From: Armatimonas rosea
Lineage (GTDB): Bacteria > Armatimonadota > Armatimonadia > Armatimonadales > Armatimonadaceae
Direction of reading: 5' to 3'
Assembly: GCF_014202505.1 (NCBI RefSeq)
Contig: NZ_JACHGW010000002.1
Location: forward strand, 744,001-808,000
Length of the DNA: 64,000 bases
A program made the position numbers and the translations under genes. This document shows, in pieces, positions 19,460 through 58,336 of the stretch; positions within the stretch are counted from its first letter, which is position 1, and each line of letters starts with the position of its first letter. The notes below the pieces were generated by a model. That model saw only the letters and a program-made list of their open reading frames with translations, did not search any database and was not told the DNA's origin.

Positions 19460-20128
19460 ATGAGCCTCACCCGTGAGCAGATTTTCAATCATCTCCATGC
19501 CGTTCATCAGCACGAGCCCGGCTGGCAAGACTCATGGGAGATTCTGCGTAAGTCAAGCGGTGAGGCTGTGCACTGCCTCCTTGAAGAGATTGAGGTGGAG
19601 ATGACGAAGGCAAAAAAGGCCACTTTTGTAGCTCCCGTGGTTAGCTACAGAAAGCTCCTACGGTTGGCCGAGCTCTTGGCGGAGTTTAATGACCCAAGAA
19701 GTCTCTGGCCCCTTTTGCAGGTAAGCCAGCTCACCAGTGTCGTCAACCGGCAGGGATCAGATTTTTTAGGAAACGTGCTGGATGTTATGGCGAGACGAGC
19801 AGAGCCGGAGGATATTCAAGCGCTTATCTTCGAACTGATGCGCGCACGTCCTCAGTGGAAAATCGTCAGTGGCTCAGAGGTCATGGCACAAGATATTATT
19901 GCTGTTGCTAAAGCGTTGATTCGTATTGCAGAACGCGATCCCAAACCTGAGCTGCGAGCAGCATTGCCTTTTTTGAGACCTAGTCTTCAAACACCCGTTT
20001 CGTTTATTGCTCTCCACCGTCGTCTCAAAGCAGCACTTGGTGAGAGAAACCTGCCGATACCTGCCACACCACTACAAGCAACACAGGACTTTCCGATTCC
20101 TACGGAGGGGAATCCGTCAGAGGAATAG
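19460..20128 (+). CDS. Helical-repeat protein, array member 6, with LP-x-P tail
   Basis: 222 residues. The N-terminus (LTREQIFNHLHAVHQHEPGW) is shared with members at 23294 and 23902. Then come LAELLAEFNDPRSLWPLLQ and ARRAEPEDIQALIFELMRA. The C-terminal module is AERDPKPELRAALPFLRPSL, then a helix and NLPIPATPLQATQDFPIP, motifs 13 apart. HEAT repeats are degenerate but the helical pattern persists. It starts 12 bases after the Hsp70-like gene and is probably cotranscribed with it. Cytoplasmic, function unknown. First of the more AT-rich second sub-family. Confidence 0.74.
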   Translation: MSLTREQIFNHLHAVHQHEPGWQDSWEILRKSSGEAVHCLLEEIEVEMTKAKKATFVAPVVSYRKLLRLAELLAEFNDPRSLWPLLQVSQLTSVVNRQGSDFLGNVLDVMARRAEPEDIQALIFELMRARPQWKIVSGSEVMAQDIIAVAKALIRIAERDPKPELRAALPFLRPSLQTPVSFIALHRRLKAALGERNLPIPATPLQATQDFPIPTEGNPSEE

Positions 20129-20185
20129 AATGTCCTGCTTGCGATCCCATTAACGGGCTTGGTACTCTGCAATCAATGCTATCTT

Positions 20186-21856
20186 TTAAAACAGGTTATA
20201 GTCATTGCGCGACCCGAGCCAGGAGCTGTAGCTATCCGAGGCTGGATTATTCGTCAGATTGATCAAGCCCGTACCATCTAGGTTCATTTTATAGAGCTCG
20301 CCCTTGCCCGCAGTGTAGCTCTCAAAAAGAATCGACTGGCCATCGGGTGAGAATGTTGGACGCGTCTCCTCAATGGAGTTATTGGTAAGTCGCTTGAAAT
20401 TGCTTCCGTCTGCATCCATGATGCAGATATCTCGTGAGAATAGATAGTATAATCGGACAAAAAGTATCTTTTTGCCATCAGGAGAAAATATGGGATTGTA
20501 GTTGCCCTCATTTGCATTGGTTAGTCTTGTTTGATTCGTGCCATCAATGTTCATTGTGTAGATCTCATTGTAGGTATTACGAAAGCTGGTAAAGACTATT
20601 TTCTTCCCATCCGGGGAGAACATTGGCGATTCATCAAATTTCGGATCGGTGGTAAGTCGGTTCTCTCCTGTGCCATCTGCATTGACAATGTAGATATCTG
20701 TATTGTTATTACGCTTACTCGTAAAAACTATTTTCTTCCCATCCGGGGAGAACATCGGTGCGGCATCGTCGATATTGGTATTGTTGGTAAGCCGCGTGAC
20801 TCCTGTCCCGTCTAAGTTCATGGTTGCGATCTCATATCCGCCCGTTAAGTAGCGATTTGTCATTATCGCGACTTTTTTACTGTCGGGAGAGAAAGAGAAA
20901 GGCTGATCGTTGAAGGCAGTATTGGTGATATTGACCTGGCCGGAGCCGTCTGTGTTCATCATGCATACCTCGCCATCGGAGCTTGGCTGGCAGGCATAGG
21001 CAATCTTACTACCATCGGGAGAGAGAATCGAAAGATCGTCACGGTTGGCTGTGGAGGTGAGGCGCTGCACTCCCGAGCCGTCTGCACTCATGCTATAGAT
21101 CTCCTCATCCCCGTCCCGATTGCTGGTGAAGATAATCTTTTCGCTGTTGGTCCGGTGGCTGAAGACAGGTACCGTTGTCGTCTTCCCCGACTCCTTGTCG
21201 CGCAGGGTGATATAGGTAAAGGCGATTGCATTGGACTCCACAGCGGCGTAGTCACCCGAGGGGTAGAACAAGAAGTCTGTCCCATTGCTGATCGACCACT
21301 CCCACTGGCTGTTGTCGACAAACACCGACTCTCCTGCACTGTTGTAGGCAATGGCGAAGAGGTCTAGCCGACCGCCTTTGGTGAAGGAGAGAGGGCCGGG
21401 TGAGTAGATCTCCACACGATCAATCGTGGAGTCCATGGTTAAGGCCGCCGCGGTTGTCTGGCCACTGACGAGTGTTGCTCCGACCGTGCCACGTGCCTGT
21501 GCCACACCGGTACCAGTGGTCGTGGGATAGGCACTTGCCTTGATCACGATATCGCCACGGCTTAGGTTGTTGAAGACAACGGTGGACGTAGAGCCCGATG
21601 TAGGGCGCGGGATCACACGTAGAGGGAGAAGGAGGGCTCCGGCGCTATCCCGGAGCTCGATCGCAATGCTCTGCGCCCCCACGGGAATGAGACGCGTCTG
21701 CTCCGGCCAGCGAATACTTAAAGAGACACTGGCGCTGCGTGTGGCTTCTGCTCCGGTCTTGGACGAAGAACCGCCACATCCTGCTGCCACGGTCAGGCTT
21801 GCCAACGACACCAGCGAAATTGCCCACGGGGCCGACAATAGTGGTCGTAGTTTCAT
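20186..21856 (-). CDS. Lipoprotein with TolB-like beta-propeller
   Basis: 556 residues. The signal ASLTVAAGCGGSSSKTG gives a lipobox with Cys27, so the protein is a lipoprotein. Residues about 45-215 resemble an Ig-like or carboxypeptidase-regulatory beta region. From about residue 230 there are at least six PD40/WD40-like blades, with cores such as PMFSPDGKKIVFTSKRNN, PTFSPDGQSILFES and LSILSPDGSKIAYAC alternating with MNxDGTG loops, as in TolB and DUF5050-type propellers. It points against the HEAT-like genes and interrupts their array. A TAAAAT six bases before the ATG suggests a leaderless message. Probably an envelope protein that binds other proteins. Confidence 0.82.
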   Translation of the reverse strand: MKLRPLLSAPWAISLVSLASLTVAAGCGGSSSKTGAEATRSASVSLSIRWPEQTRLIPVGAQSIAIELRDSAGALLLPLRVIPRPTSGSTSTVVFNNLSRGDIVIKASAYPTTTGTGVAQARGTVGATLVSGQTTAAALTMDSTIDRVEIYSPGPLSFTKGGRLDLFAIAYNSAGESVFVDNSQWEWSISNGTDFLFYPSGDYAAVESNAIAFTYITLRDKESGKTTTVPVFSHRTNSEKIIFTSNRDGDEEIYSMSADGSGVQRLTSTANRDDLSILSPDGSKIAYACQPSSDGEVCMMNTDGSGQVNITNTAFNDQPFSFSPDSKKVAIMTNRYLTGGYEIATMNLDGTGVTRLTNNTNIDDAAPMFSPDGKKIVFTSKRNNNTDIYIVNADGTGENRLTTDPKFDESPMFSPDGKKIVFTSFRNTYNEIYTMNIDGTNQTRLTNANEGNYNPIFSPDGKKILFVRLYYLFSRDICIMDADGSNFKRLTNNSIEETRPTFSPDGQSILFESYTAGKGELYKMNLDGTGLINLTNNPASDSYSSWLGSRNDYNLF

Positions 21857-21862
21857 GGATCG

Positions 21863-21868
21863 ATTTTA
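21863..21868 (-). promoter_or_regulatory. Probable -10 element, leaderless start of TolB-like lipoprotein
   Basis: TAAAAT on the minus strand, six bases (CGATCC) before ATG 21854-21856. Confidence 0.55.
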
Positions 21869-22013
21869 CAGGAGCTTTGAGGTGTAGGACAAGAGCCCAC
21901 TTGCCGCTTGTCCATTAAGAACCTATCATGAAGCCAATCGACGTTTTGCGCCATGGACTCAGGTTGGTCTTATGTGATCCCGCCACAACAATGTCCTCGT
22001 CGAGCACCTGCGC

Positions 22014-22019
22014 TAGAGT
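22014..22019 (+). promoter_or_regulatory. Possible -10 element for the second array block
   Basis: TAGAGT five bases (GTCTT) before ATG 22025. It is weaker than the other hexamers. The rest of the 168-base gap from 21857 to 22024 shows no hairpin or second signal. Confidence 0.4.
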
Positions 22020-22024
22020 GTCTT

Positions 22025-22672
22025 ATGAAAGACGATCCTCATCTTCAGCTCAAACGCTTTCTTCAGGGGCCGCCTGAGGAGAGAGAAGATGCGCGTCAAA
22101 ACCTGCTGGCGATGGGGGAGGGAGCGGTTCCCCCTATTATTGAGACTCTGGCGGAGGGAAGTATCGATGCTCCTGCGTACGCAGAGAAATACTCGCACGA
22201 GACACTTGTTGCAGGACTGAAGCTCCTTGTTGCCTTGAACAGTCCCCGAAGTCTTTGGTTTCTTCTTCGAGTTACTCAAAACAACTATATTCTCCATTCA
22301 ATTTTTCAGGATGCGCTCCATGCGACTGCAAAACGTGGGAGCTCGGAGGACATTGTCGTGCTACTAGATATTCTCCGACATGCCAAGCCAGGCCGAAAAG
22401 ACGAAGAGCGTATCTGTAATGTACACCCGACCTATGCAGTTTGGGTGGCCGCGGCACTAGTTCAGCTTGCTGAGCGCGATCCCAGGCCCGAGCTACGTGC
22501 TGCCTTGCCCATGCTCACGCTTCATCCCTACTTGCCCGTTGAGTTTGTTGCTCTACGCTTACTACTGAAGGGAGCGCTCTCAAAGAAGAACCTACCGATT
22601 CCCGCAGAGGCACCACCGAGCACTGTAGAGGCCTTACCGATTCCTGTGGAGGCTCCCGATGACAGAGTATGA
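22025..22672 (+). CDS. Helical-repeat protein, array member 7
   Basis: 215 residues. Opens LQLKRFLQGPPEEREDARQN with LLAMGEGAVPPIIETLAEGS, a HEAT-like first repeat. Then LLVALNSPRSLWFLLRVTQN and AAALVQLAERDPRPELRAAL. The tail is KKNLPIPAEAPPSTVEALPI (motifs 14 apart). I chose ATG 22025 because the family begins at a Met followed by a charged helix and the hexamer above fits; the frame is open to 21953. The end overlaps the next gene by 14 bases. Function unknown. Confidence 0.73.
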   Translation: MKDDPHLQLKRFLQGPPEEREDARQNLLAMGEGAVPPIIETLAEGSIDAPAYAEKYSHETLVAGLKLLVALNSPRSLWFLLRVTQNNYILHSIFQDALHATAKRGSSEDIVVLLDILRHAKPGRKDEERICNVHPTYAVWVAAALVQLAERDPRPELRAALPMLTLHPYLPVEFVALRLLLKGALSKKNLPIPAEAPPSTVEALPIPVEAPDDRV

Positions 22673-23303
22673 GCTCAGTGAGATTCTCTCCGCGCTGGAG
22701 CATGGTAGCGAGGAGCAGCAAGAAGTGGCTTTGGAGCGCTTGCGTGCTGTCGGAGAGCAGGCAGTGGAGCCGCTGGTGCAGACTATCGTTCGGTATCTAC
22801 ATGCCCATAGACCATGGAAAGATGAGGTCTACCAAGAGATACCTGAGGCAGCACGGCAAAGAGTCCTACGGATGGCGTTCCTGCTCGTGAGCTATGGGTC
22901 TGCAAGTAGCCTGCGAGTGCTTGCCGGGGTGGCGCAGCAGGTCAACCGGGCACCGTTTCTGGAGCCTGTTGCGATACTGGAAGAACGTGCCATAGAGGAC
23001 GATGTCTCTGCCCTGATCTCTGTCTTGCGCTGGTTGATCGGCACGTTGAAAGAGACCGTACTCTCGCTTGCGATTGGGCAGGCACTCGTGCGTATTGCCA
23101 TGAACCACCCTGAGCACCACCGACAGCTCGCGTATGCACTGCCGCTCCTGCGACGCTACAACCTCGCCTCGCTGGCGTACCTTCGCCTTCATAGTGCGCT
23201 TAGAGTTGCACTCTCTACGCGGACTCTCCCCATCCCCGCGCAGGCAGCACAAACTCATACCGATCTTCCGATCCCTGGAGAGGAGCATCGTAAATGGCAC
23301 TGA
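22659..23303 (+). CDS. Helical-repeat protein, array member 8
   Basis: 214 residues. HEAT-like first unit: LEHGSEEQQEVALERLRAVG with EQAVEPLVQTIVRYL. Then VSYGSASSLRVLAGVAQQVN and a block ending YALPLLRRYN. The tail RTLPIPAQAAQTHTDLPIP has motifs 13 apart. Its ATG lies 14 bases inside the end of member 7 in another frame, the largest overlap in the array. No other domain. Function unknown. Confidence 0.73.
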   Translation: MTEYELSEILSALEHGSEEQQEVALERLRAVGEQAVEPLVQTIVRYLHAHRPWKDEVYQEIPEAARQRVLRMAFLLVSYGSASSLRVLAGVAQQVNRAPFLEPVAILEERAIEDDVSALISVLRWLIGTLKETVLSLAIGQALVRIAMNHPEHHRQLAYALPLLRRYNLASLAYLRLHSALRVALSTRTLPIPAQAAQTHTDLPIPGEEHRKWH

Positions 23304-23905
23304 CACAGGAGCAAATTCAAGAGCACCTTCAGAAGATACGAAACGAAGAACACAACTGGGAAGAGTCGCGCGCCATCTTGCTGGCGGCGGGCCGGGAGGT
23401 AGTTCCTGAGCTGATGAAGCTTGTGGAGCAAGAACGAAATATACTTAGTAGACAGTTTATTCCCAATCGAAAACCTCTACAACGACTTGCTGAGTTACTG
23501 ACAGAGTTTCATGATCCACAAAGTCTTATGATACTCTACGATTGTATCGTGCCACTCTTTAATGAAGTCAAGGTCTCGTTTTTTCATCAGCTTGTTCCCG
23601 TGCTGCAACAGCGTGCCGAGACAGAGGACCTCAGTGCTTTGATCGCGTTTCTAGCTAAAACAAACAGCACTTATGTAGCTAACGTGCTGGTTCAGATTGC
23701 AGAGCAGGAGCCACGACAAGAGCTGCGTGAGGTTCTTCCTCTCTTAAAGGCAGGCTTTAGTAAACCGAGTGCTCCTTTAGAGTTTATTGGCCTGCGTGGA
23801 CGACTCAAGGCAGCGCTTGCCAGTGAGAGCTTGCCGCTCCCTTCAAAGGCTGCCATGAGTACCGATGATAACTTGCCAATCCCCATAAAGGAACCCACAG
23901 AGTGA
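23294..23905 (+). CDS. Helical-repeat protein, array member 9
   Basis: 203 residues. It begins LTQEQIQEHLQKIRNEEHNW, close to member 6. Then LLAAGREVVPELMKLVEQER, LAELLTEFHDPQSLMILYD and RAETEDLSALIAFLAKTNST. The C-terminal module AEQEPRQELREVLPLLKAGF is followed by a helix and SLPLPSKAAMSTDDNLPIPI (motifs 14 apart). The start overlaps member 8 by 10 bases. Sequence similarity to member 10 is obvious across the whole length. Function unknown. Confidence 0.73.
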   Translation: MALTQEQIQEHLQKIRNEEHNWEESRAILLAAGREVVPELMKLVEQERNILSRQFIPNRKPLQRLAELLTEFHDPQSLMILYDCIVPLFNEVKVSFFHQLVPVLQQRAETEDLSALIAFLAKTNSTYVANVLVQIAEQEPRQELREVLPLLKAGFSKPSAPLEFIGLRGRLKAALASESLPLPSKAAMSTDDNLPIPIKEPTE

Positions 23906-24564
23906 CGTTAGCGCGGGAGCAAGTTGTTAAATACCTCTACACGATCTATCATCGGGAGTCGGGCTGGGTAAAAGCACAGGTGGCTCTGGTAGATGCGGGA
24001 AGCGATATCGTGCCCTTTCTCATGGAGTTTATTGAGGCGGAGCTCCAGAGTATTGTCCAGACAGAGTACCGGCCAGAATATGAAAAGATGGATCGACTGA
24101 TGGCCGTGCTTGCCCAGTATGCAGACCCGCGCAGCCTTCCTCTCTTTGTGCGTTTTATGTATCAGACCAATCGTCACTTTGGAGAAGCCTACTGGCATCA
24201 GATACGTATGGCACTGGAGCATAGGGCGACAGAGGAGGATATTGCTGCACTCATTGCACTTCTACAGAGGGCAGAGCCAAAGTGGGTAGCGACGGCATAT
24301 GTTACCGAGCTGCATGCCACAGAAGCGCTTGCTATTGCACAAAGCCTTGTCCGTATGGCAGAGCAGGATCCAAAACCAGAGCTGAGAGCAGTACTTCCCA
24401 TGCTAACCTTTACCCTGGCAAGGCCTTTTGAGTTTATAGGCCTGCGCCGACGACTAAAGGCTGCGCTCGCAAATAACAGCTTGCCGATTCCAGCAGATGC
24501 AAAGGAGAGCATTCAAGAGTCACTGCCAATACCTGTTGATGCAGAGCCTATTCTTGAAAGCTGA
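23902..24564 (+). CDS. Helical-repeat protein, array member 10
   Basis: 220 residues from GTG, which overlaps the previous TGA (GTGA). Start LAREQVVKYLYTIYHRESGW as in members 6 and 9. Then VDAGSDIVPFLMEFIEAELQ, VLAQYADPRSLPLFVRFMYQ and RATEEDIAALIALLQRAEPK. Module AEQDPKPELRAVLPMLTFTL precedes SLPIPADAKESIQESLPIPV (motifs 14 apart). It ends the run that began at 22025. A 77-base gap with a TAAAAT at 24578-24583 follows. Confidence 0.74.
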   Translation: MTLAREQVVKYLYTIYHRESGWVKAQVALVDAGSDIVPFLMEFIEAELQSIVQTEYRPEYEKMDRLMAVLAQYADPRSLPLFVRFMYQTNRHFGEAYWHQIRMALEHRATEEDIAALIALLQRAEPKWVATAYVTELHATEALAIAQSLVRMAEQDPKPELRAVLPMLTFTLARPFEFIGLRRRLKAALANNSLPIPADAKESIQESLPIPVDAEPILES

Positions 24565-24641
24565 GAGAGTTGTATGCTAAAATGACCTGTGATTCTTTAA
24601 AGATGACCTCTGCACATTGAATGTGCGAGCCTCATCCTACA

Positions 24642-25031
24642 ATGATAGGGGAGTCACATTCAAAGTTGAAAGGAGCTATTTTAATAGCAACACAAGCAAA
24701 TGCAGCGCGCATTGTTGAAGATCGTCGGTCACTGGCTGCACTTGAAGGAATCACAGGCTATGCACCCCGTAACCCTGATCTCTCCATCGATGCCCTACGG
24801 TCACTAGAAGCGCAGATGGACTCAAAGGCAAATCGTGTGACCAAACTTCGTGCAGAGCTTGCCGGAGCAATCGATAACTACCACGCGACCGGGAGTCTCT
24901 TTACCCAGCGGATGATCGAGGCACGCGACGAAGTACAAGTCCAGTTTGGACGAGACTCGAACGAGCTTCAGGCAGTCGGGCGCACCAAGCGTAGTGATCG
25001 AAAGGCACCCGTGCGTAAGCCAAAGCCATGA
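24642..25031 (+). CDS. Small conserved-looking protein of unknown family inside the array
   Basis: 129 residues. It is unlike the helical-repeat genes around it: N-terminal ATQANAARIVEDRRSLAALE, GYAPRNPDLSIDALRSLEAQ, a middle helix, and a C-terminal QVQFGRDSNELQAVG followed by the basic tail RSDRKAPVRKPKP. I recall proteins with a similar F/Y-G-x-D-S-x-E ending and a G-x-x-R-x-S-E-R-K tail in other phyla, but cannot name the family. The start is uncertain: ATG 24642, GTG 24621 or a later codon behind AAAGGAG (24669-24675). Its stop overlaps the start of the next gene. Confidence 0.5.
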   Translation: MIGESHSKLKGAILIATQANAARIVEDRRSLAALEGITGYAPRNPDLSIDALRSLEAQMDSKANRVTKLRAELAGAIDNYHATGSLFTQRMIEARDEVQVQFGRDSNELQAVGRTKRSDRKAPVRKPKP

Positions 25032-25573
25032 CCGAGAGTGACCTGACAGCCCTCGAATCGCGGATCGAAACGCTCCTGGAGAGATGTCACGCCGCGCAGT
25101 GGGAGTGGAAGCTACTCACACACGAGGGCTGGCTTGTCACATACGAAGAGTTCACCGCGCTATTCTGCCGCAATGCAGGGCTCTGTCAAGTTTCGTATCT
25201 CATGCAGCTTGCACAACAGGGAATAAAACACCGACAGTGGCGGTCGTTTACTCAGTTCTTTACGCTGGATCAAGATCGCATCCAAGCCATTTTAGATCGC
25301 AGGGCATTTCACGCAATGAAGGCTCTCCTTCGTCTTGCAGAGACACAGCCAGCACGTGAGCTGATTCCTGTGATCGAGCAGCTGACCGTGGTTCTAAAAC
25401 AAGATCATGCACCCCTAGAGTTCATTCCCCTCCACTGGAAAATGAAGCGGGCGCTCAAGAACTTAAACAACCTGCCTATCCCCGCCGAGGCTCCTGCAAC
25501 TTCTACCGGACTGCCGATTCCTATAGACAGCACGAGAGAAAAAGAAGAGCCTTACCACGGACAAGAAATTTGA
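25028..25573 (+). CDS. Helical-repeat protein, array member 11
   Basis: 181 residues. Helices LTALESRIETLLERCHAAQW and LCQVSYLMQLAQQGIKHRQW. The C-terminal module is ETQPARELIPVIEQLTVVLK, then APLEFIPLHWKMKRALKNLN and NLPIPAEAPATSTGLPIPI (motifs 13 apart). The shared E-F-I-x-L-x-x-x-(L/M)-K-x-A-L helix links it to members 9 and 10. HEAT units are hardly visible, so this is a divergent member recognised mainly by its C-terminal third. Coupled by ATGA to the gene before and by TGATG to the gene after. Confidence 0.68.
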   Translation: MTESDLTALESRIETLLERCHAAQWEWKLLTHEGWLVTYEEFTALFCRNAGLCQVSYLMQLAQQGIKHRQWRSFTQFFTLDQDRIQAILDRRAFHAMKALLRLAETQPARELIPVIEQLTVVLKQDHAPLEFIPLHWKMKRALKNLNNLPIPAEAPATSTGLPIPIDSTREKEEPYHGQEI

Positions 25574-26310
25574 TGAGCTACCAAAATAAACCCAACCACA
25601 TCGAGCCTTTTACAGAAGATGCCGAAGAGCGATATGCACAAGTACGTACACACCAGGTGCAGCTTTTTGTTTCAGGAAATCCACGTCAGCAACAATCCGC
25701 GACCGAATGGCTTGTGGACTACCTCAGTGAGCTTAATCTGGAGAAGTACCGACGAAACAAGTTCTTTGCAAAGTTTCGCATGGCTTTATCTACCCGGGAA
25801 GAGAAGGCGCTCAATCTTGCCATAGAGCTCTTTCCTGATCTCCAGAGCCAGCCACGAGAAGCCACTGTTGTAGCACTGGGAAATGCAGCAGCACAGCACC
25901 CTTGTCTCTGGGAACTTTTATGTATTGGGGTGCAGCGCTATACCTTCTCGGCTGATTGTTTCTATCTCGCCACGGATGCGATTCGCCATACGATCTTGCA
26001 CTGGGATACGCCGACAACCGTGGTGCATCTAAAACAGGCGCTCAAACCCATTGATACTGCCGTTGACGATCTCACAGGACAGGCTGTTTTGACGCTGATC
26101 TCGGGACTTTCTCCTCACCCTGCACTCCGACAACTCCTCCCAGAGCTAAAGGCACTCGAGCGGCACAGCGCTCTAAAAGAGGCCGCTAGTACGCTACGGA
26201 CACAGGTCGCCTCGCTTCCTCGGGGAGACTTTCCCATTCCTACCCAGGCGCAGGAAAATAACGAGAAGGATCTTCCGCTTCCTGCATCCAACAAAGACAA
26301 AGATGCCTGA
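25573..26310 (+). CDS. Helical-repeat protein, array member 12
   Basis: 245 residues from ATG 25573, which shares one base with the previous TGA. It has a longer, divergent N-terminal region (YAQVRTHQVQLFVSGNPRQQ, ATEWLVDYLSELNLEKYRRN), a HEAT-like stretch REATVVALGNAAAQHPCLWE, and the C-terminal block SPHPALRQLLPELKAL. The tail GDFPIPTQAQENNEKDLPLP has motifs 14 apart, with Phe in place of the first Leu. Function unknown. Confidence 0.68.
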   Translation: MSYQNKPNHIEPFTEDAEERYAQVRTHQVQLFVSGNPRQQQSATEWLVDYLSELNLEKYRRNKFFAKFRMALSTREEKALNLAIELFPDLQSQPREATVVALGNAAAQHPCLWELLCIGVQRYTFSADCFYLATDAIRHTILHWDTPTTVVHLKQALKPIDTAVDDLTGQAVLTLISGLSPHPALRQLLPELKALERHSALKEAASTLRTQVASLPRGDFPIPTQAQENNEKDLPLPASNKDKDA

Positions 26311-26965
26311 GGACACACCGACATTGCTACAGTGGGTTGCCTTGGGGGATGAAGCGCAGCGCAAGTACGCCGAAGAAACACTCTATGCACAGGGCAGCGC
26401 TGTTTTCCCTCAGGTGTACGAGGCCGTTGAGAAAGCCCTTGATACCTACCGACGTATGCTTTTTGCCGGTGAACAGGCACATTGGCGGATAGAACGTCTT
26501 GCCCTCTTTCTCGCCGCTTTTGGCGAACCGAGTACCATTGAATTATTAGTACAAGTGCGTCTCTCAACTAGCCGCAACATGCCTCTCGCTCGACTTCTCT
26601 GGCGCTTAGAAGTGCGCGATGACCTCGCAACCATTCAGGCGCTCTTGACCGGAGGGTTTCTGCTTCGCAAGAACTTCTCCTTTGGACCAGAGACCCTCAA
26701 GATTGCGGGGCTTTTAGTCAATCTCGCCGAGACCGTCCCCTGTCCCGAGCTACACCAAACCCGTGTGCTGCTTCGTCCAGGGCTTGGTGTTCCCAAAGAG
26801 TTCGCCCAACTTCGTAAGCGCCTCGATGCAGCACTTGGCACGGAGGCTACGCTACCACTCCCTGCAGATATGGCTATCTCCATTGAGAATCTTCCTATTG
26901 CTACAAATGTAGAATGGGCCGGCAAGAACCTCTCGCCACCCATCAACGAGCAAAACGATGGCTAG
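26303..26965 (+). CDS. Helical-repeat protein, array member 13
   Basis: 220 residues. Opens TPTLLQWVALGDEAQRKYAE then ETLYAQGSAVFPQVYEAVEK. Then LALFLAAFGEPSTIELLVQV and LAETVPCPELHQTRVLLRPG, LGVPKEFAQLRKRLDAALGT. The tail ATLPLPADMAISIENLPIA has motifs 13 apart, followed by an extra 20 residues. It is the closest relative of the gene at 27157, and both end in N-D-G with the next gene's ATG inside the last codons. It is the left copy of a duplicated two-gene unit. Confidence 0.72.
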   Translation: MPEDTPTLLQWVALGDEAQRKYAEETLYAQGSAVFPQVYEAVEKALDTYRRMLFAGEQAHWRIERLALFLAAFGEPSTIELLVQVRLSTSRNMPLARLLWRLEVRDDLATIQALLTGGFLLRKNFSFGPETLKIAGLLVNLAETVPCPELHQTRVLLRPGLGVPKEFAQLRKRLDAALGTEATLPLPADMAISIENLPIATNVEWAGKNLSPPINEQNDG

Positions 26966-27167
26966 TGCCAAGCTCACGCAGCCTATCTACAAGCTTAACC
27001 ACGATGAGTACAGAGAGCGCTGCCTGGCCAAGAACGAGTTAGTTGCTCTGGGCAAAGAAGCTGTAGGTCTATCTATTTTTGTACAGTCTCAGAATAACTC
27101 TAAAAAGACACTTCTTATTCTTACATCCTCATATCAAACTTTATCACCTCAAAAAAATGACTCCTGA
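26958..27167 (+). pseudogene. Truncated 5' copy of the HEAT-repeat gene at 27797
   Basis: The first 36 codons (MASAKLTQPIYKLNHDEYRE, continuing to LGKEAV) repeat the start of the gene at 27797 almost base for base (26958-27065 against 27797-27904), including the preceding AAAACG and the same 8-base overlap with the gene before. After codon 36 the sequence turns AT-rich and unrelated, and the frame stops at 27165-27167, inside the next gene. The rest of the HEAT protein is missing. It is most likely a remnant of tandem duplication that still couples translation across the junction. Confidence 0.78.
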
Positions 27168-27804
27168 ACAGTACCGATTGCAATGTCTTTTATATGTAAA
27201 TGGCGTCGCTTCACAGAGAGAATCTGCTAGGGAGATGCTTCTCGCATGTGGCCCTGCGGCAATTCCTTGGATAATAACCATCGCAGAAGAAAAATTAAAA
27301 GAGTTTTATAAGCCAGGAATTGGGTATCCACCATTTCAGCCGCTAATACGTTATGCTCAGCTGCTTTCAGAATATGGTGAGCCTTGCTGCTTAGACTTGC
27401 TTGTACGAATCGCTCAGCAGAGTCCCGATCAAGGATACGAAGAGTTCCGTAAACCTCTAAAAAAGTTGCTTACTTTTTTAGAGGCACGTGATGATATAGA
27501 AACAATTACTGCTTTAGTAGCTGCGCTGCGGCGACTCCGTCGTGCTATTTTGTATCAAAGAGAGGCTGTCTTGGTTGCAGAGATTTTAGTAGCCAGTGCA
27601 GAGCGTGCACCATGGGTAGAGCTACACCAAGTGCGTGCACTCTTACAGCCAAGTATCGGTACACCAAAAGAGTTTCGCATTCTCTCTGAGCGTCTTACCC
27701 GTGCTCTTGGTGAAGAGAACTTCTTGCCTCTTTCGGCGGCCTCCGCACCCACTTCACAGAGCCTTCCTATTCCGGTGCGGGCACGTGAGGAAAACGATGG
27801 CTAG
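27157..27804 (+). CDS. Helical-repeat protein, array member 14
   Basis: 215 residues from ATG 27157. SAREMLLACGPAAIPWIITI is a HEAT-like first unit, then LLSEYGEPCCLDLLVRIAQQ, ARDDIETITALVAALRRLRR and ERAPWVELHQVRALLQPSIG. The helix GTPKEFRILSERLTRALGEE leads to NFLPLSAASAPTSQSLPIPV (motifs 13 apart). It is paralogous to member 13. The first 300 bases are clearly richer in A and T than the surroundings, so this copy has drifted or arrived separately. Function unknown. Confidence 0.72.
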   Translation: MTPEQYRLQCLLYVNGVASQRESAREMLLACGPAAIPWIITIAEEKLKEFYKPGIGYPPFQPLIRYAQLLSEYGEPCCLDLLVRIAQQSPDQGYEEFRKPLKKLLTFLEARDDIETITALVAALRRLRRAILYQREAVLVAEILVASAERAPWVELHQVRALLQPSIGTPKEFRILSERLTRALGEENFLPLSAASAPTSQSLPIPVRAREENDG

Positions 27805-28867
27805 TGCCAAGCTCACGCAGCTTATCTACAAGCTTAACCACGACGAGTACAGAGAGCGCTGCCTAGCCGAGAACGAGTTAGTTACCCTGGGAAAAGAAGC
27901 TGTTGAGGCGCTGATCATGGTAGTTGTGCACCAACTAATGTTGCCAGCCCTGCGTGCTGCATCCGCCCTCAGCCGTATTAGTGATGAGCGTGGTGTCTTG
28001 CCCGTTGCCCGTCTTGCCTTGCGTGAGAGTGCCCCAATCCCTCAAATTCTTGATATCTTAGCTGAGTGGCAGTGGCAGGAATTGCCAAAAGAGTGGGCCG
28101 CAAAAGAGCTCGTTCGGATCGCAAAGCGCTACAAGCAGTCACAGATGCCCTCTATAATCTGGGAGGACTTTCTCCCACGAGTGCGCACTCTCTCGCCGGG
28201 CTGGACTCCTCCCGTGATCGTTGTTCCGGCTCCTGTCGTGGTTCCCACATTCGAGGATATGCCCGACGCGATACAAGCGCTTCGCTCCATTCACTATGGG
28301 ACACGTCAAGCGGCAACAGCAACGCTCATCGCAATCGGAGAGGAAGCCGTCCCTGCGCTCATGGACCTGCTCGATAATGGTAGCACCACACTGTGCTATC
28401 GTGCGGCGGAGATACTAGGCGAGATTGGAGACACGCGTGCCATCGCGCCTCTGATCGCCATTCGCAAGACGCGTGGGCAGGATATCGAGCAGGCATGCAA
28501 CCGTGCCTTGATCAAGCTCGCAAAGCAGCTCCCCGCAACCGCGACCACTGAAGACATCCCCCTCCTCATCGCGCTCATCCAGCGCCTGCGTTATGACCTC
28601 TCCACCCATGATGTTGCCCTCTCCGCGGCAATGGCACTAGAGCACCTCGCCCGAACGCGCCCAACACCGAGCCTTCGGGGCGCACTCAAGTGGCTCAAAC
28701 CGGTTGTTGTTCCTTTACCACCTGGCTTCAAGAGTGCCCGTCTTGCTATCGAAGAGGCCACCGAGCAGTGGCAAGACCTCCCCCTTGTCACCAGCTCACC
28801 CGTTGCTCTCGTCACAGACCTTCCGCTCCCCGCGGATGCCTCGCCATGCCTTGAGGAAAGCCAGTGA
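27797..28867 (+). CDS. HEAT-repeat protein, array member 15
   Basis: 356 residues, the second large HEAT protein of the array and clearly a paralogue of member 1. Shared segments are LRAASALSRISDERGVLPVA, EEAVPALMDLLDNGSTTLCY followed by RAAEILGEIGDTRAIAPLI, TPSLRGALKWLKPVVVPL and IEEATEQWQDLPL. The tail DLPLVTSSPVALVTDLPLPA has motifs 14 apart. A Pro/Val linker (VIVVPAPVVVPTFE) divides two HEAT blocks, where member 1 has a shorter join. Its ATG is 8 bases inside member 14. Probably a protein-binding scaffold. Confidence 0.82.
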   Translation: MASAKLTQLIYKLNHDEYRERCLAENELVTLGKEAVEALIMVVVHQLMLPALRAASALSRISDERGVLPVARLALRESAPIPQILDILAEWQWQELPKEWAAKELVRIAKRYKQSQMPSIIWEDFLPRVRTLSPGWTPPVIVVPAPVVVPTFEDMPDAIQALRSIHYGTRQAATATLIAIGEEAVPALMDLLDNGSTTLCYRAAEILGEIGDTRAIAPLIAIRKTRGQDIEQACNRALIKLAKQLPATATTEDIPLLIALIQRLRYDLSTHDVALSAAMALEHLARTRPTPSLRGALKWLKPVVVPLPPGFKSARLAIEEATEQWQDLPLVTSSPVALVTDLPLPADASPCLEESQ

Positions 28868-50920: not shown

Positions 50921-53241
50921 CAAGAGGGGGCTCGGCGGTACTGGCACTCGCGGCGACACTTGCACTCACGACACCTGCGGGAGCAAGCTGGAGCGATAAC
51001 CTGGCATCGATTCACTTTAACAGCAACAAGCCTGATTTTGGTATCCCTCCGCGTCGGGGACTGATGGGTGGCGGGGAGCAAGATGACCGTCCAGGCTCGG
51101 GTTGGGGCAATGGTACGATTGAGCACGCGGAGCTGAGCTACGAGCACGACAACGAGCGTGCGGCAAACCGTCAGCGAGCCCTACGGGAAACCCAGCACCG
51201 GGCGCGTACTGCGACCGAGCGTGGAGACTGGTTGAGTGCGCGACGGCTCTGGGAGGGCTTCGCGATGCGCTTTGGAAAGAGTGGCATCGTGCAGGATCGG
51301 TGTGAGGTGCTCGTCCATACCAATCCACCTGCGGAGCCGCTCCGTCGCTATCTCGCGGCGCTCGATGCGCTCGAAGGTCCCAACACGGGCTGGAACGCCG
51401 CTCGTCGGGAGCTGGCTGCGCTTCATGCCGAGAGCACGCTGCCGCCCTGGCTCCGAGAGCATGCCGCCTACCAGCACGCTGCAGGGCTGGTGCAGTGGCT
51501 GAACTACAAAGAGGCGACCTCCCTCTGGCAGGCACAGATTCGTCAGTTTCCCGAAGGGGAGAAGCGTGAGGCGGCCTTGCTCATGATCGCCCGGGCGTGC
51601 CTGCTCCACAAAGCCATCCCCGATAGTGTCCGTACAGGCCGCGCCGCCACCGAGCAGCTCTTGCGTGCTTTCCCGCAAACGCGGTTCCGTGTCGCTGCCC
51701 GTGGCTTGCTCGCCCGTGCCGACCTCGACGAAGGGCGCTACGAGGCCGCCGCGACCACCTACTGCGCCCTCAACGACGGCGACTCGATCGCGGCGGTGCG
51801 GCGGCAGTTTCAAAACACGGCGGCGGAGCCACGCCTGCGCACTCTCCAGCTCATCGCCTACCTCCGCGCCCTGCCCCAAGCCACCGATTTTCGCGCCTAC
51901 CGCTTCGCCGTCAAGGGCATCTCCCACTCGCTGGCTCTCTTCAAGCCGGACACGGGCAGAGTCTTTCTGGAGCGGCTGGTGCGCGAGCCGGAGCTCGCTG
52001 CGCCCTACTTCTACTTCCGGCTCTACCACTGCGACAACAAGCCCGCTGACCTGGTGCGCCTGACCCTGCTGGCAGATCGGATCGCAGCGCGGGAGGCACT
52101 CCCGCCGGTGGTGCGTGTGCGGCTTGCGGAGCTCTACTACCAGGCTCATGCCTACCGTCGTGCTGCGACTTGGGCTAGCTCAGCAACCGGCATGGCCGAT
52201 GAGAAAGTTCGCGCCCGGGCGCTCTACGTACGGGCGGGGAGCCGCTACCGCCAGAAGCGCTTCGAGGAGGCGCGGGCAGATCTTGAGCAGGTTCTGACGC
52301 GCTGTCCCCGCAGCAATATCCGCCACGCGACCCGTGAGCTACTTGCCTTGGTGGCGGAGGCACAGGGGGACTTGCCCACCGCGCTGGACCAGTACCTCGC
52401 GCTGGACTACCGCGACGACTATGCCTACCTCATCGATGCGCGCCTGCCGATTGCGACTCTCGAGAGCTACCAGCGCACCCGCACCCACCACAAAGAGCTC
52501 CTTGCCTATAGCATCGCCCTGCGCCACCTGCGGATCGAGCAGTGGGCGCAGGCCCGGCGCTGGCTAGCCCGTGTACCTGCGAAGTCCTACGCCGCCTTTG
52601 CCCTCCCCGAGAGCTACAAAGACGAGTGGTGGGCGGAGTCTCTCCACCCAACTCGTCAGACCCTGGAGAGCCTGGCGTTTCTGGACCTGAAGTCCAAGCA
52701 GGCACGGGGTGCCGAGGCGAAGGCGGCGGCACGCTTTGCCTACGCGCGGGCCTACTACACGCAGGGGCTCCTTCAGCTCTACAATGCGCCGCTCTGGCAG
52801 GGTGAGCGCATGTTTGCCTTCAACTACTTCTGGAACCGTGATGTCGCGACTCCTGCCGATGATAGAGCGGTCCAGCGCTACATGTACCAGCACGAGGTCT
52901 ATGCCCACACCCGGCAGATCTGTCTGGAGATTGCTGCCGACTACCCCCAGACAAAGAGCGCACCCGCCGCGCTCTACCGCGCTGCCTGTGCCGCCGAGAA
53001 GCTAGAGCACCTCAATGAGTGGTGGCGCACCGATGAAAAGGGACGCTGGTGGGCGGCCGACAGCGGCTGGGACGAGGGCAAGGTGCGCCGCCGCAACCAC
53101 CCCCTCCTCGACCATCGCAAGGAAGCCTCTCAGCTCATGGCACTTTTCGTCCGGCGCTACCCCAAGCACCCATTGGCAAAAGATGCTCGCAAGTACGCCG
53201 ATGTCTTTGTGGGCAAGGGGGAGCCTGCTGAGGAGAGCTAG
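50917..53241 (+). CDS. Secreted TPR-like helical protein
   Basis: 774 residues. Signal peptide MTRGGSAVLALAATLALTTP with cleavage near ASA/GAS at about 24-26. The rest is tetratricopeptide-like: ALYVRAGSRYRQKRFEEARA, DLEQVLTRCPRSNIRHATRE, ARGLLARADLDEGRYEAAAT and FQNTAAEPRLRTLQLIAYLR. A late segment (LFVRRYPKHPLAKDARKYAD) matches YbgF/BamD-type TPR endings. Probably periplasmic and working with the DUF3142 protein, whose stop overlaps its ATG. Its 3' end overlaps the convergent gene by four bases. Confidence 0.78.
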   Translation: MTRGGSAVLALAATLALTTPAGASWSDNLASIHFNSNKPDFGIPPRRGLMGGGEQDDRPGSGWGNGTIEHAELSYEHDNERAANRQRALRETQHRARTATERGDWLSARRLWEGFAMRFGKSGIVQDRCEVLVHTNPPAEPLRRYLAALDALEGPNTGWNAARRELAALHAESTLPPWLREHAAYQHAAGLVQWLNYKEATSLWQAQIRQFPEGEKREAALLMIARACLLHKAIPDSVRTGRAATEQLLRAFPQTRFRVAARGLLARADLDEGRYEAAATTYCALNDGDSIAAVRRQFQNTAAEPRLRTLQLIAYLRALPQATDFRAYRFAVKGISHSLALFKPDTGRVFLERLVREPELAAPYFYFRLYHCDNKPADLVRLTLLADRIAAREALPPVVRVRLAELYYQAHAYRRAATWASSATGMADEKVRARALYVRAGSRYRQKRFEEARADLEQVLTRCPRSNIRHATRELLALVAEAQGDLPTALDQYLALDYRDDYAYLIDARLPIATLESYQRTRTHHKELLAYSIALRHLRIEQWAQARRWLARVPAKSYAAFALPESYKDEWWAESLHPTRQTLESLAFLDLKSKQARGAEAKAAARFAYARAYYTQGLLQLYNAPLWQGERMFAFNYFWNRDVATPADDRAVQRYMYQHEVYAHTRQICLEIAADYPQTKSAPAALYRAACAAEKLEHLNEWWRTDEKGRWWAADSGWDEGKVRRRNHPLLDHRKEASQLMALFVRRYPKHPLAKDARKYADVFVGKGEPAEES

Positions 53242-53996
53242 CGGAGGCGGTAGCGCGTGCCGTGGTAGGCAAGCTGGAGCTGGCCGGTCTTGCGGCTCCA
53301 GCCCACGGTAAGAAACCCGGTGGGAGTAGGGGGCGGGACATGCCAGCCGTCGAACGGCGGCTCCGGTGCGGCCGCAACCTCGCGTAGCTGGCTCCCATCG
53401 GTGCGGCTGAGCCAGACCTCCCACATCCGGTGGGGAGGGAAGCGGTCTGCCAGGGGTGGGGAGAAGCGCCGCAAGAGCCCGATCCCGGGGCGCTCGTACT
53501 CGCTGACAAAGCACCAGGCAACCTGCTGGCCATCGGGGGAGAGAACGCCGTCTGCGACTGTCCGCACGGTCTTGGGCAGGGGAAGACGTGTTGTTTGGGG
53601 TGGGGCGATGCCATGCTCACCAATGCCAAATGCGGTGATCGCGGCGACCTCCGGGTTCTTGGGGCGTGCTGTCGGAAAGCCTGGCTCGTAGACCACCGCG
53701 CGGAGGTCGGGGGTAATTCCCAGCAGATGCCCCGTGGGCTTATCGACATGGTGCGCGACCTCTTCTGTGGCCCGCACGAGCTGGTAGACCCCACCCGGCT
53801 CCAGCCGAAGCTCGCGGCCCGAGCCATCGGGGAGGAGCTGCTCATTGGCCGAGGTGAGCCAGGTCCCCTCGGGCTCACAGGCCACCAGATCGCCCGGAAT
53901 CCGAACGAGCCGCTCGCCGACTTGGAGCGTGAGCGTAAACGCCACCGCCACGACAGCACCGAGCAAGAGGACGAGATGGCGATTTCGGCGTGACAT
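53238..53996 (-). CDS. Membrane-anchored protein with propeller-like repeats
   Basis: 252 residues. An N-terminal helix (HLVLLLGAVVAVAFTLTLQV) is followed by short beta-rich units: GDLVACEPEGTWLTSANEQL, LGITPDLRAVVYEPGF, GVLSPDGQQVAWCFVSEYE and MWEVWLSRTDGSQLREVAAA. The S-P-D-G-x-x-V-A-W and S-R-T-D-G-S-Q patterns resemble PD40/TolB blades, but only about four are visible, so it would be an incomplete or small propeller. Its start codon lies in the palindromic promoter it shares with the glycoside hydrolase gene. Confidence 0.6.
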   Translation of the reverse strand: MSRRNRHLVLLLGAVVAVAFTLTLQVGERLVRIPGDLVACEPEGTWLTSANEQLLPDGSGRELRLEPGGVYQLVRATEEVAHHVDKPTGHLLGITPDLRAVVYEPGFPTARPKNPEVAAITAFGIGEHGIAPPQTTRLPLPKTVRTVADGVLSPDGQQVAWCFVSEYERPGIGLLRRFSPPLADRFPPHRMWEVWLSRTDGSQLREVAAAPEPPFDGWHVPPPTPTGFLTVGWSRKTGQLQLAYHGTRYRLR

Positions 53997-54025
53997 ATGT
54001 CATTCTACCGGTAAAATGGCATATG
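53994..54025. promoter_or_regulatory. Palindromic bidirectional leaderless promoter
   Basis: The 32 bases from one ATG to the other form an inverted repeat. The left half CATATGTCATTCTACC equals the reverse complement of the right half at 14 of 16 positions, centred on ACCGGT. Each arm holds a -10-like hexamer, TAGAAT leftward (54002-54007) and TAAAAT rightward (54012-54017), five bases from its start codon. For the rightward gene GTGACA at 53990-53995 could be a -35 element. A dyad regulator might also bind here. Confidence 0.7.
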
Positions 54026-56707
54026 GACCGACGTCGTTTTTTGCAGTCAACGGCCCTGGGGGTATGGACAATGAGTGAGCCGGAGCAGCCGCAGGAGCCC
54101 GCCCGTGGCTGGGAGCTACGCCGCGAGGGGGCCAAAGAGTGGAAGCCCGCGACGGTTCCCGGTTGCTGGGAGCGCGATGGCATCCCCGGCGCGGTCTGTG
54201 GCCCTGTCTGGTACCGAACCGCCCCCCCCGCTCCCACGAGTGGGGGAGCAGGGACACGGCTCTGGTGGGAGCTGGATGCGGTCTCGTACCACTGTGAGGG
54301 CTTCGCGGATGGAGCAAAGATCGGGGAGCACACGGGGCTCTGGGATGCCTTTGCCTGGGAGCTTCCCGCCGGCGCACGCGAGCTGACCCTCAAGGTGGAG
54401 AAGCCCGGCAACGAGCGCTTTCCGGTCAAACAAACCCTCGCGGGCTTTCTTCCCTATGTCTGGGGAACCTGGGGCGGCCCCTGGCAAGATGTCCGAGTCC
54501 GCGCCACCGGCCCCGCACGCATCCAGTCGGTGTTTGCGTTGGGGGAGTTGTCGGGGCGGCTCAGTGGCGATATTGAGCTGGATGTCGCGCCGGGAGCCGC
54601 GGCGACCTTGGAGCTTCGCCTGAGCGATGCGGAAGGCAAAGTGGTAGTGGGCCGCACTCTGCAGGCCTCAGGCTCGGGGAAGGTGCCTTTTGAGCTGCAG
54701 CTCGCCAAGCCGCAGCTCTGGAGCCCGGAGTCGCCGACTTGTTATCTCCTGACGGTTGTTGTGGGAGTGGGGGGGCGCCTCTCGGACCAGCAGACACGCA
54801 CGGTGGGCTTTCGCAAGCTACAAGTCGAGGGTGACCGTATCCTGCTCAACGACCAGCCGATCTACTTCCGCGCTCCGCTCTCCTGGGGCTGGTACGAGCA
54901 GAGCATGGCACCCAACCCTCCGCTGGAGGTCTTTGAGCAGGAGCTCAAGAAGCTCAAGGCCCTGGGCTTTAACGGGATGAAGCTCTGTCTCTGGATTCCC
55001 CCCCGCCGCTACTTCGAGCTGGCGGACCGCCTGGGAGTCCTGCTCTGGGTGGAGCTGCCGCTCTGGCTCCCGGAGAAGAGCGCGTTTTTCACGCAGCAGA
55101 CCCCGGGCGAGTACGAGCGGATCGTGCGGCAGATCGGGGATCACCCCTCGATCGTGCTCTGGACGATCGGCTGTGAGCTGGGGGAGGGGCTGGACACGGC
55201 GTTTCAGGGAAAGCTCTATGCCCAGGTGAAGAAGCAGACCGGCTCGACCCTGGTGCGGGACAACTCGGGCTCGGCGGAGTGCTACGGCGGCCCGCTCCCC
55301 GAGCACGCCGACTACTGGGACTTTCACCTCTACTGTGACCTGCCCTTCGCCCGCACTACTTTCGACGCCTTCGCGCCCCGCTGGCGCGAGCGCCAGCCCT
55401 TTCTCTTTGGCGAGTTCGCCGACCAGGACGCGCTCCGGGACCTGCCCGCGATCCTCAAGCGGGATAAAACTCCGCCCTGGTGGACCCTGAGCGATCCCCA
55501 GAGAAACCCCAAGGGAGTCCGCTGGGAGTATGCGGTCACCGAGCAGCGCAAGGCACTGGAGGAGAATGGCCTGCTCCCACGCCTGGCGGAGCTGCGGGAG
55601 TCGAGCGCAAAGCAGGCGCTCCTGGCACGCAAGCACACGCTGGAGCTCACCCGCTCCTACCCCTTCACCACGGGCTATGTTGTCACCGGCCTCTGCGATA
55701 CGCCCATCACCACCGCCGGCCTCTACGACGACCTGGGAGAGCTGCGCTATGACCCGTCGGCGTTCAACGGCGACACGGTGCTCTTTATCGAGCCGGACCG
55801 GGGCCGTGCCTGGACCGCGGGGGGGGATCGTCCCGCCTGGCCGGACCGCTGGGGAGTCCGTGTGGGCGAGAAGGTGCGGCGGCATGTCGGGGTCTCGCAC
55901 TTTGGCAAGGGGCTGGGGCCGGGCGCGGTCCTGCGCTGGAGCACGAGCACGGGGCAGAGCGGGCAGCTGACCCTGGCACCGCTGACGACCGGCGAGGTCA
56001 AGGAGCTGGGGCTGATCGAGTTTGTGGCACCCGAGAAGGCGCAGAAGCTAACCCTCACCGTGGAGCTCACCGCGGCGGGAAAGACCCTCTCCCAGAACAC
56101 CTGGCCGCTGTGGGCCTTTGAGACGCCGCGGACGGGGCAGAGTGTCTCGCTCTACGATCCCTTTCAGGTGCTCAAGGGCTTCCCCGAGGCTACTCGCTGG
56201 CAGGTGGCACCGCAGACACCGCTTCCCTTGGGGCTGGGAGGGCCGGGGATTGTCGTGACTACCACCTGGAGCGATGCCTTGCTGACCTTCGCTCAGAACG
56301 GAGGGCGGGTTCTCTACCTCCAGCCCAACGCCGCGACCGGGCTCCGCGCGACCGAGCTTCCATTCTTCCGCGAGGCGCTACGGCTCTTTGAGAACCACCC
56401 GAGCTGGGGGAGCTTTCCGCACGAGAAGACAACGGACCTGCTGTTCTATGGGCTCGCCAGCGACTGTGCCTTGGAGCTCGATGCCCTGCAGAGCTTCGGC
56501 GTGGCCCTCACCCCCATCCTGACTCGGGTGGACGCGCGGACATCGAAGCTTCATTCCTATATCTGTGAGGCGCAGGTGGGGGCAGGTAAGCTCCTGCTGA
56601 CCACTCTACGCCCCTACGGTGGCCTAGGAGACCAGCCCTCCGGCCTTGAGCGCGCGACTTGCGGGGTAGCTCTCTTACGCGCTTGGCTGGAGTGGCTGGC
56701 TCGGTGA
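54023..56707 (+). CDS. Glycoside hydrolase family 2-like protein
   Basis: 894 residues with a twin-arginine-like start (MDRRRFLQSTALGVWTM), so probably exported. Domain order of GH2: sugar-binding jelly roll (about 20-140, VPGCWERDGIPGAVCGPVWY), immunoglobulin-like domain (about 150-250), TIM barrel (about 265-560), then extra beta domains. The barrel has IVLWTIGCELGEG at about 379-391, where the usual N-E acid/base pair is C-E, and FLFGEFADQD near 463 where the nucleophile is expected. beta-Galactosidase, glucuronidase or mannosidase activity is possible; the altered residue leaves activity in doubt. ATG 54023 is fixed by the promoter palindrome. Confidence 0.8.
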   Translation: MDRRRFLQSTALGVWTMSEPEQPQEPARGWELRREGAKEWKPATVPGCWERDGIPGAVCGPVWYRTAPPAPTSGGAGTRLWWELDAVSYHCEGFADGAKIGEHTGLWDAFAWELPAGARELTLKVEKPGNERFPVKQTLAGFLPYVWGTWGGPWQDVRVRATGPARIQSVFALGELSGRLSGDIELDVAPGAAATLELRLSDAEGKVVVGRTLQASGSGKVPFELQLAKPQLWSPESPTCYLLTVVVGVGGRLSDQQTRTVGFRKLQVEGDRILLNDQPIYFRAPLSWGWYEQSMAPNPPLEVFEQELKKLKALGFNGMKLCLWIPPRRYFELADRLGVLLWVELPLWLPEKSAFFTQQTPGEYERIVRQIGDHPSIVLWTIGCELGEGLDTAFQGKLYAQVKKQTGSTLVRDNSGSAECYGGPLPEHADYWDFHLYCDLPFARTTFDAFAPRWRERQPFLFGEFADQDALRDLPAILKRDKTPPWWTLSDPQRNPKGVRWEYAVTEQRKALEENGLLPRLAELRESSAKQALLARKHTLELTRSYPFTTGYVVTGLCDTPITTAGLYDDLGELRYDPSAFNGDTVLFIEPDRGRAWTAGGDRPAWPDRWGVRVGEKVRRHVGVSHFGKGLGPGAVLRWSTSTGQSGQLTLAPLTTGEVKELGLIEFVAPEKAQKLTLTVELTAAGKTLSQNTWPLWAFETPRTGQSVSLYDPFQVLKGFPEATRWQVAPQTPLPLGLGGPGIVVTTTWSDALLTFAQNGGRVLYLQPNAATGLRATELPFFREALRLFENHPSWGSFPHEKTTDLLFYGLASDCALELDALQSFGVALTPILTRVDARTSKLHSYICEAQVGAGKLLLTTLRPYGGLGDQPSGLERATCGVALLRAWLEWLAR

Positions 56708-58157: not shown

Positions 58158-58336
58158 AACGGCGGTGCTGGAGAGCGTCGTGCCCCCCCGATCAGAACGG
58201 GGGGGCTGGAGAGCCTTCGGCTGCGAAGGCCGTTCCGGCCATACCGAATTATGGCCGAAGGCCTTTGTGTCCGAGGCACGAGGACAGCAAGACGCCCCCG
58301 TTTATGGGGGCGAGACGCCCCCCTCCCACGGGGGCG
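58143..58336. repeat. Palindromic intergenic element C
   Basis: Begins inside tdh: AGCACCGCCG (58143-58152) pairs with 58160-58169, and the stop TAG lies in the loop. A second hairpin, CCCCCCCG...CGGGGGGG, is at about 58184-58206. 58206-58252 equals the reverse complement of part of D (45 of 47). 58262-58299 matches B (37 of 38). A GACGCCCCCG/TGGGGGCG hairpin at 58291-58312 and another at about 58313-58336 close it. It is thus a composite of the A/B and D types. Ends just before the promoter of the next gene. Confidence 0.9.

Follow-up and report, generated by a model that had tools for sequence, protein, structure and literature searches.

The 32 bp at positions 53994-54025 of the window are very probably two ordinary leaderless promoters that stand back-to-back, their GG-TAnAAT motifs adjoining without an intervening base, and the palindrome that they form is a by-product of this placement. 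The arrangement, an extremely compact example of a known promoter type, is essentially ordinary. The window is the stretch of 64,000 nucleotides that was analysed (G000:C2:744001-808000); G000 denotes the window's genome, that of the Armatimonadota species Armatimonas rosea, and G001 its congener. The site reads CATATGTCATTCTACC in the left arm and GGTAAAATGGCATATG in the right arm. It is an imperfect inverted repeat whose arms are identical at 14 of 16 positions (left arm against the reverse-complemented right arm), and the pairing ends precisely on two divergent start codons. The preliminary description had reported this repeat together with a -10-like hexamer 5 nt from each ATG, and re-reading of the sequence confirmed it. 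The features are listed below.

53238-53996, minus strand: near-orphan protein of 252 aa with a signal-like N-terminus; no Pfam match, and weak partial matches only among 150 relatives.
53994-54025, no strand: 32-bp imperfect inverted repeat, 14/16 per arm, with both start codons inside; found by sequence as a single genome copy.
53994-53996, minus strand: ATG of the minus gene and its predicted transcription start (53996); first start codon in the frame, 5 nt from a consensus -10.
54002-54007, minus strand: -10 hexamer TAGAAT of the minus promoter; with its GG it is GGTAGAAT (54009-54002), a complete GG-TAnAAT match.
54008-54011, no strand: CCGG centre, the GG elements of both abutting promoters; assigned from the GG preference before TAnnnT in 400 leaderless genes.
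54012-54017, plus strand: -10 hexamer TAAAAT of the plus promoter; with its GG it is GGTAAAAT (54010-54017), a complete match to the leaderless consensus.
54023-54025, plus strand: ATG of the plus gene and its predicted transcription start (54023); Met1 and the RR signal are kept in the congener ortholog.
54023-56707, plus strand: glycoside hydrolase family 2 (GH2) protein of 894 aa with a twin-arginine-type signal; PF00703, E 1.6e-10, with orthologs in relatives.

Both hexamers are 5 nt from their own ATG and CCGG lies between them. A distance of 27 bp separates the predicted starts, 54023 (plus) and 53996 (minus); for the start codons it is 26 bp. With three or fewer mismatches the full dyad has one copy in the window and none expected in shuffled sequences; it has one copy in the whole 6.33-Mb genome. 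Compared with random DNA, the dyad is clearly not a chance occurrence. A possible -35 element on the plus side, GTGACA at 53990-53995 with a 16-bp spacer, was treated as chance, as TTGACA-like sequences are not enriched upstream of the genome's leaderless promoters. Elsewhere in the window, positions 20001-28000 have a G+C content of 0.51-0.53 as against roughly 0.60-0.68 in the remainder, and may be an acquired island.

Judged by their sequences, both flanking genes look real and both start codons look right. The plus protein begins with MDRRRFLQ and its G001 ortholog with MDRRSFLQ from the same Met; the frame in G001 opens just 9 nt upstream. The N-terminus of the minus protein is a hydrophobic signal or anchor, and its frame offers no earlier start codon. 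In G001 no counterpart of the minus gene was found, and a search of the named genome collection for relatives of the GH2 gene was negative. In the Pfam search no regulator turned up among the flanking genes tested.

We called genes in 1.2 Mb, and later in 2.4 Mb, of the 6.3-Mb genome with a home-made codon-usage caller. TAnnnT was found 5-7 nt before 3.3-7.8% of the predicted start ATGs per position, compared with 0.2-0.5% at internal ATGs. About a fifth of the genes (400 of 1,879 in 2.4 Mb, where the motif partly guided the choice of start codons) carry a leaderless-type promoter, whose consensus is GG-TAnAAT. In these 400 genes the two positions directly before TAnnnT are G in 71% and 57%. 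Shine-Dalgarno-like motifs precede 4.75% of the genes of this class versus 34% of the remaining genes, and no -35 signal was detectable upstream of the genome's leaderless promoters. Both genes at the dyad have a -10 hexamer within 5-7 nt of the start, and neither is preceded by a Shine-Dalgarno sequence. The earlier proposal of two divergent leaderless promoters with a shared centre is well supported by the motif found across the genome, the constancy of its spacing and the missing Shine-Dalgarno sequences. In the genome sample (L040-L099, L111-L170), the GG before TAnAAT looks like a lineage-specific extended -10.

The core of the dyad, ATTCTACC followed by GGTAAAAT, consists of GGTAnAAT twice, in opposite orientations, and the two GG ends meet to give CCGG; therefore the palindrome follows from the promoters. 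Since the spacing is 5 nt on both sides, the ATGs are also in register. When leaderless promoters with 5-nt spacing were paired, at least 14/16 arm identity appeared in 2.1% of the pairings, and in 9.6% when both promoters were strong; these pairings include the dyad's own promoter pair. Compared with pairs of the genome's own leaderless promoters, the dyad is not unusual. Four of the six positions that are free of promoter or ATG consensus constraint match (binomial P about 0.05-0.12), and of the 5 spacer positions 4 agree between the arms, slightly above expectation. Little or no symmetry is left beyond the promoter consensus, and the 4/6 excess is at most marginal.

There are 292 divergent gene pairs in 2.4 Mb, and in 47 of them both genes carry a leaderless promoter. 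Among these 47 the distance from hexamer to hexamer forms a continuum from -2 bp up to hundreds of bp. In five pairs the gap is 3-5 bp, which is a mild, non-significant excess (scan test, 3-bp window, P about 0.2-0.3), and no significant clustering at 4 bp was found in the 2.4 of 6.3 Mb surveyed. These five include a xylose isomerase-like gene with an MFS transporter gene and a flavin oxidoreductase gene with a polysaccharide deacetylase gene. The gene pairs with the compact layout show no common function. At two other divergent leaderless pairs (G000:C1:177999-178031 and G000:C2:114182-114209) the -10 hexamers overlap by 2 bp. These are nearer to the shared -10 type, and by geometry they resemble the 23-bp class of bidirectional promoters.

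The congener has the same layout at another locus. In G001, CAT-N5-ATTTTACCGGTAAAAT-N5-ATG, with a perfect core and 5+5 spacing, separates an arginine-tRNA-protein transferase gene from its divergent neighbour, which has no Pfam match. This gene pair is unrelated to the genes at the dyad. The window's genome also has the pair, divergent and with both leaderless promoters kept, and here 154 bp separate the -10 hexamers. Most of these 154 bp are repeat DNA of a dispersed family, for which blastn gave about 70 hits in 2.4 Mb. The preliminary description had proposed that relatives with both genes but no dyad would speak against it. Such a case exists for the transferase pair; the dyad's own locus allows no such comparison, as the search of the congener did not find the minus gene. 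Since the transferase pair keeps its genes and promoters at 154 bp, the dyad appears dispensable. Upstream of the GH2 ortholog in G001 there is no dyad and the divergent neighbour is another gene; a possible leaderless -10, TATAGT, lies 8 nt before the ortholog's ATG. The intergenic repeat itself, represented by a 149-bp stretch between divergent promoters (G000:C2:268567-268715, L105), has one blastn hit in the window, at about 58186-58313.

In wider comparisons, the full layout with the CCGG centre was found in only one Armatimonadetes MAG among 84,980 species genomes, where it lies at the gene pair that has it in G001. A scan of 291 genomes from the phylum for the 16-bp core added two matches, L172 and L173, and in neither is the core flanked at 5 nt by an ATG on each side. 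When any four bases were allowed at the centre, 151 genomes gave one further match, in G120, whose centre by sequence is AAGAATAG.

A TANNNT -10 beside the start codon is known from leaderless genes of Deinococcus-Thermus and Actinobacteria (PMC12340547, PMC3160421). The promoters here are like these in having the -10 5-7 nt before the start, no Shine-Dalgarno sequence and no detectable -35, and in serving a large share of genes. They differ in that GG directly precedes TAnAAT and that two promoters abut in opposite directions. The bidirectional promoters of Warman et al. in E. coli and other prokaryotes have a shared or overlapping -10 and starts 7-25 bp apart, with optima at 10, 18 and 23 (PMC12825309, PMC10268837). 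The dyad is like them in its pseudo-symmetric DNA and divergent mRNAs, and by geometry a polymerase in one orientation should exclude the other, so that in exclusion the site may work like a bidirectional promoter. Unlike them, it has separate hexamers parted by the 4-bp CCGG and both start codons inside the dyad, and the 27 bp between its predicted starts falls outside the 7-25 bp of the published definition (PMC10268837).

For the two back-to-back promoters, RNA polymerase would most likely start at or beside the A of each ATG, and each message would be translated without a Shine-Dalgarno sequence. The polymerase at each promoter would make its upstream contacts within the opening codons of the opposite gene, which would leave hardly any room for two polymerases at once. 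With predicted starts this close the footprints should overlap, making simultaneous occupancy unlikely. Such exclusion is probably a passive consequence of compaction and not an evolved switch.

A selected switch, in which polymerase in one orientation blocks the other and the two genes are reciprocally regulated, seems unlikely to us. We hold equally doubtful its extension to the genus, that abutted leaderless promoters recur as a minimal switch, about 32 bp that carry both promoters and both start codons, and that the exclusion of polymerases itself coordinates the pair. The overlapping footprints expected from the geometry, the recurrence of the layout in G001 and the finding that strong activation one way can repress the other way at an E. 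coli bidirectional promoter (PMC12825309) are consistent with the selected switch, but the transferase pair, compact in G001, is split by repeat DNA in the window's genome, the gaps lack significant clustering and the gene pairs concerned show no common function. True bidirectional promoters of E. coli at basal activity do not compete, and do so only when activity is raised (PMC12825309); exclusion at the dyad therefore need not be regulatory.

Less probable still is that only the plus promoter is real and that the minus gene is no gene or starts elsewhere. The minus gene is a near-orphan and a coding-only caller placed its start 15 codons downstream, but GGTAGAAT fits the consensus completely and stands at an accepted spacing, the minus frame scores as coding, and its ATG is the first start in a frame with a signal-like N-terminus. 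The least probable reading, which we regard as very improbable, makes the dyad a special element, the operator of a dimeric repressor covering both promoters: its near-perfect symmetry and plausible operator size of 32 bp would suit this, but the two promoter motifs account for all strong symmetry, the site is neither repeated in the genome nor conserved upstream of the congener's GH2 ortholog, every close match to the half-site found in 2.4 Mb itself shows the promoter-plus-ATG pattern, and none of the flanking genes tested by Pfam is a regulator. That earlier suggestion is thus left unsupported, and a repressor is neither needed nor indicated.

A literature search found no paper joining the name Armatimonadota with promoters and transcription start sites. 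The two back-to-back promoters expose GG-TAnAAT as a leaderless promoter consensus for an Armatimonadota genome. They also show how leaderless promoters let divergent start codons sit just 26 bp apart. The loci with and without the long spacer form a natural pair for testing whether polymerase exclusion at divergent promoters matters.
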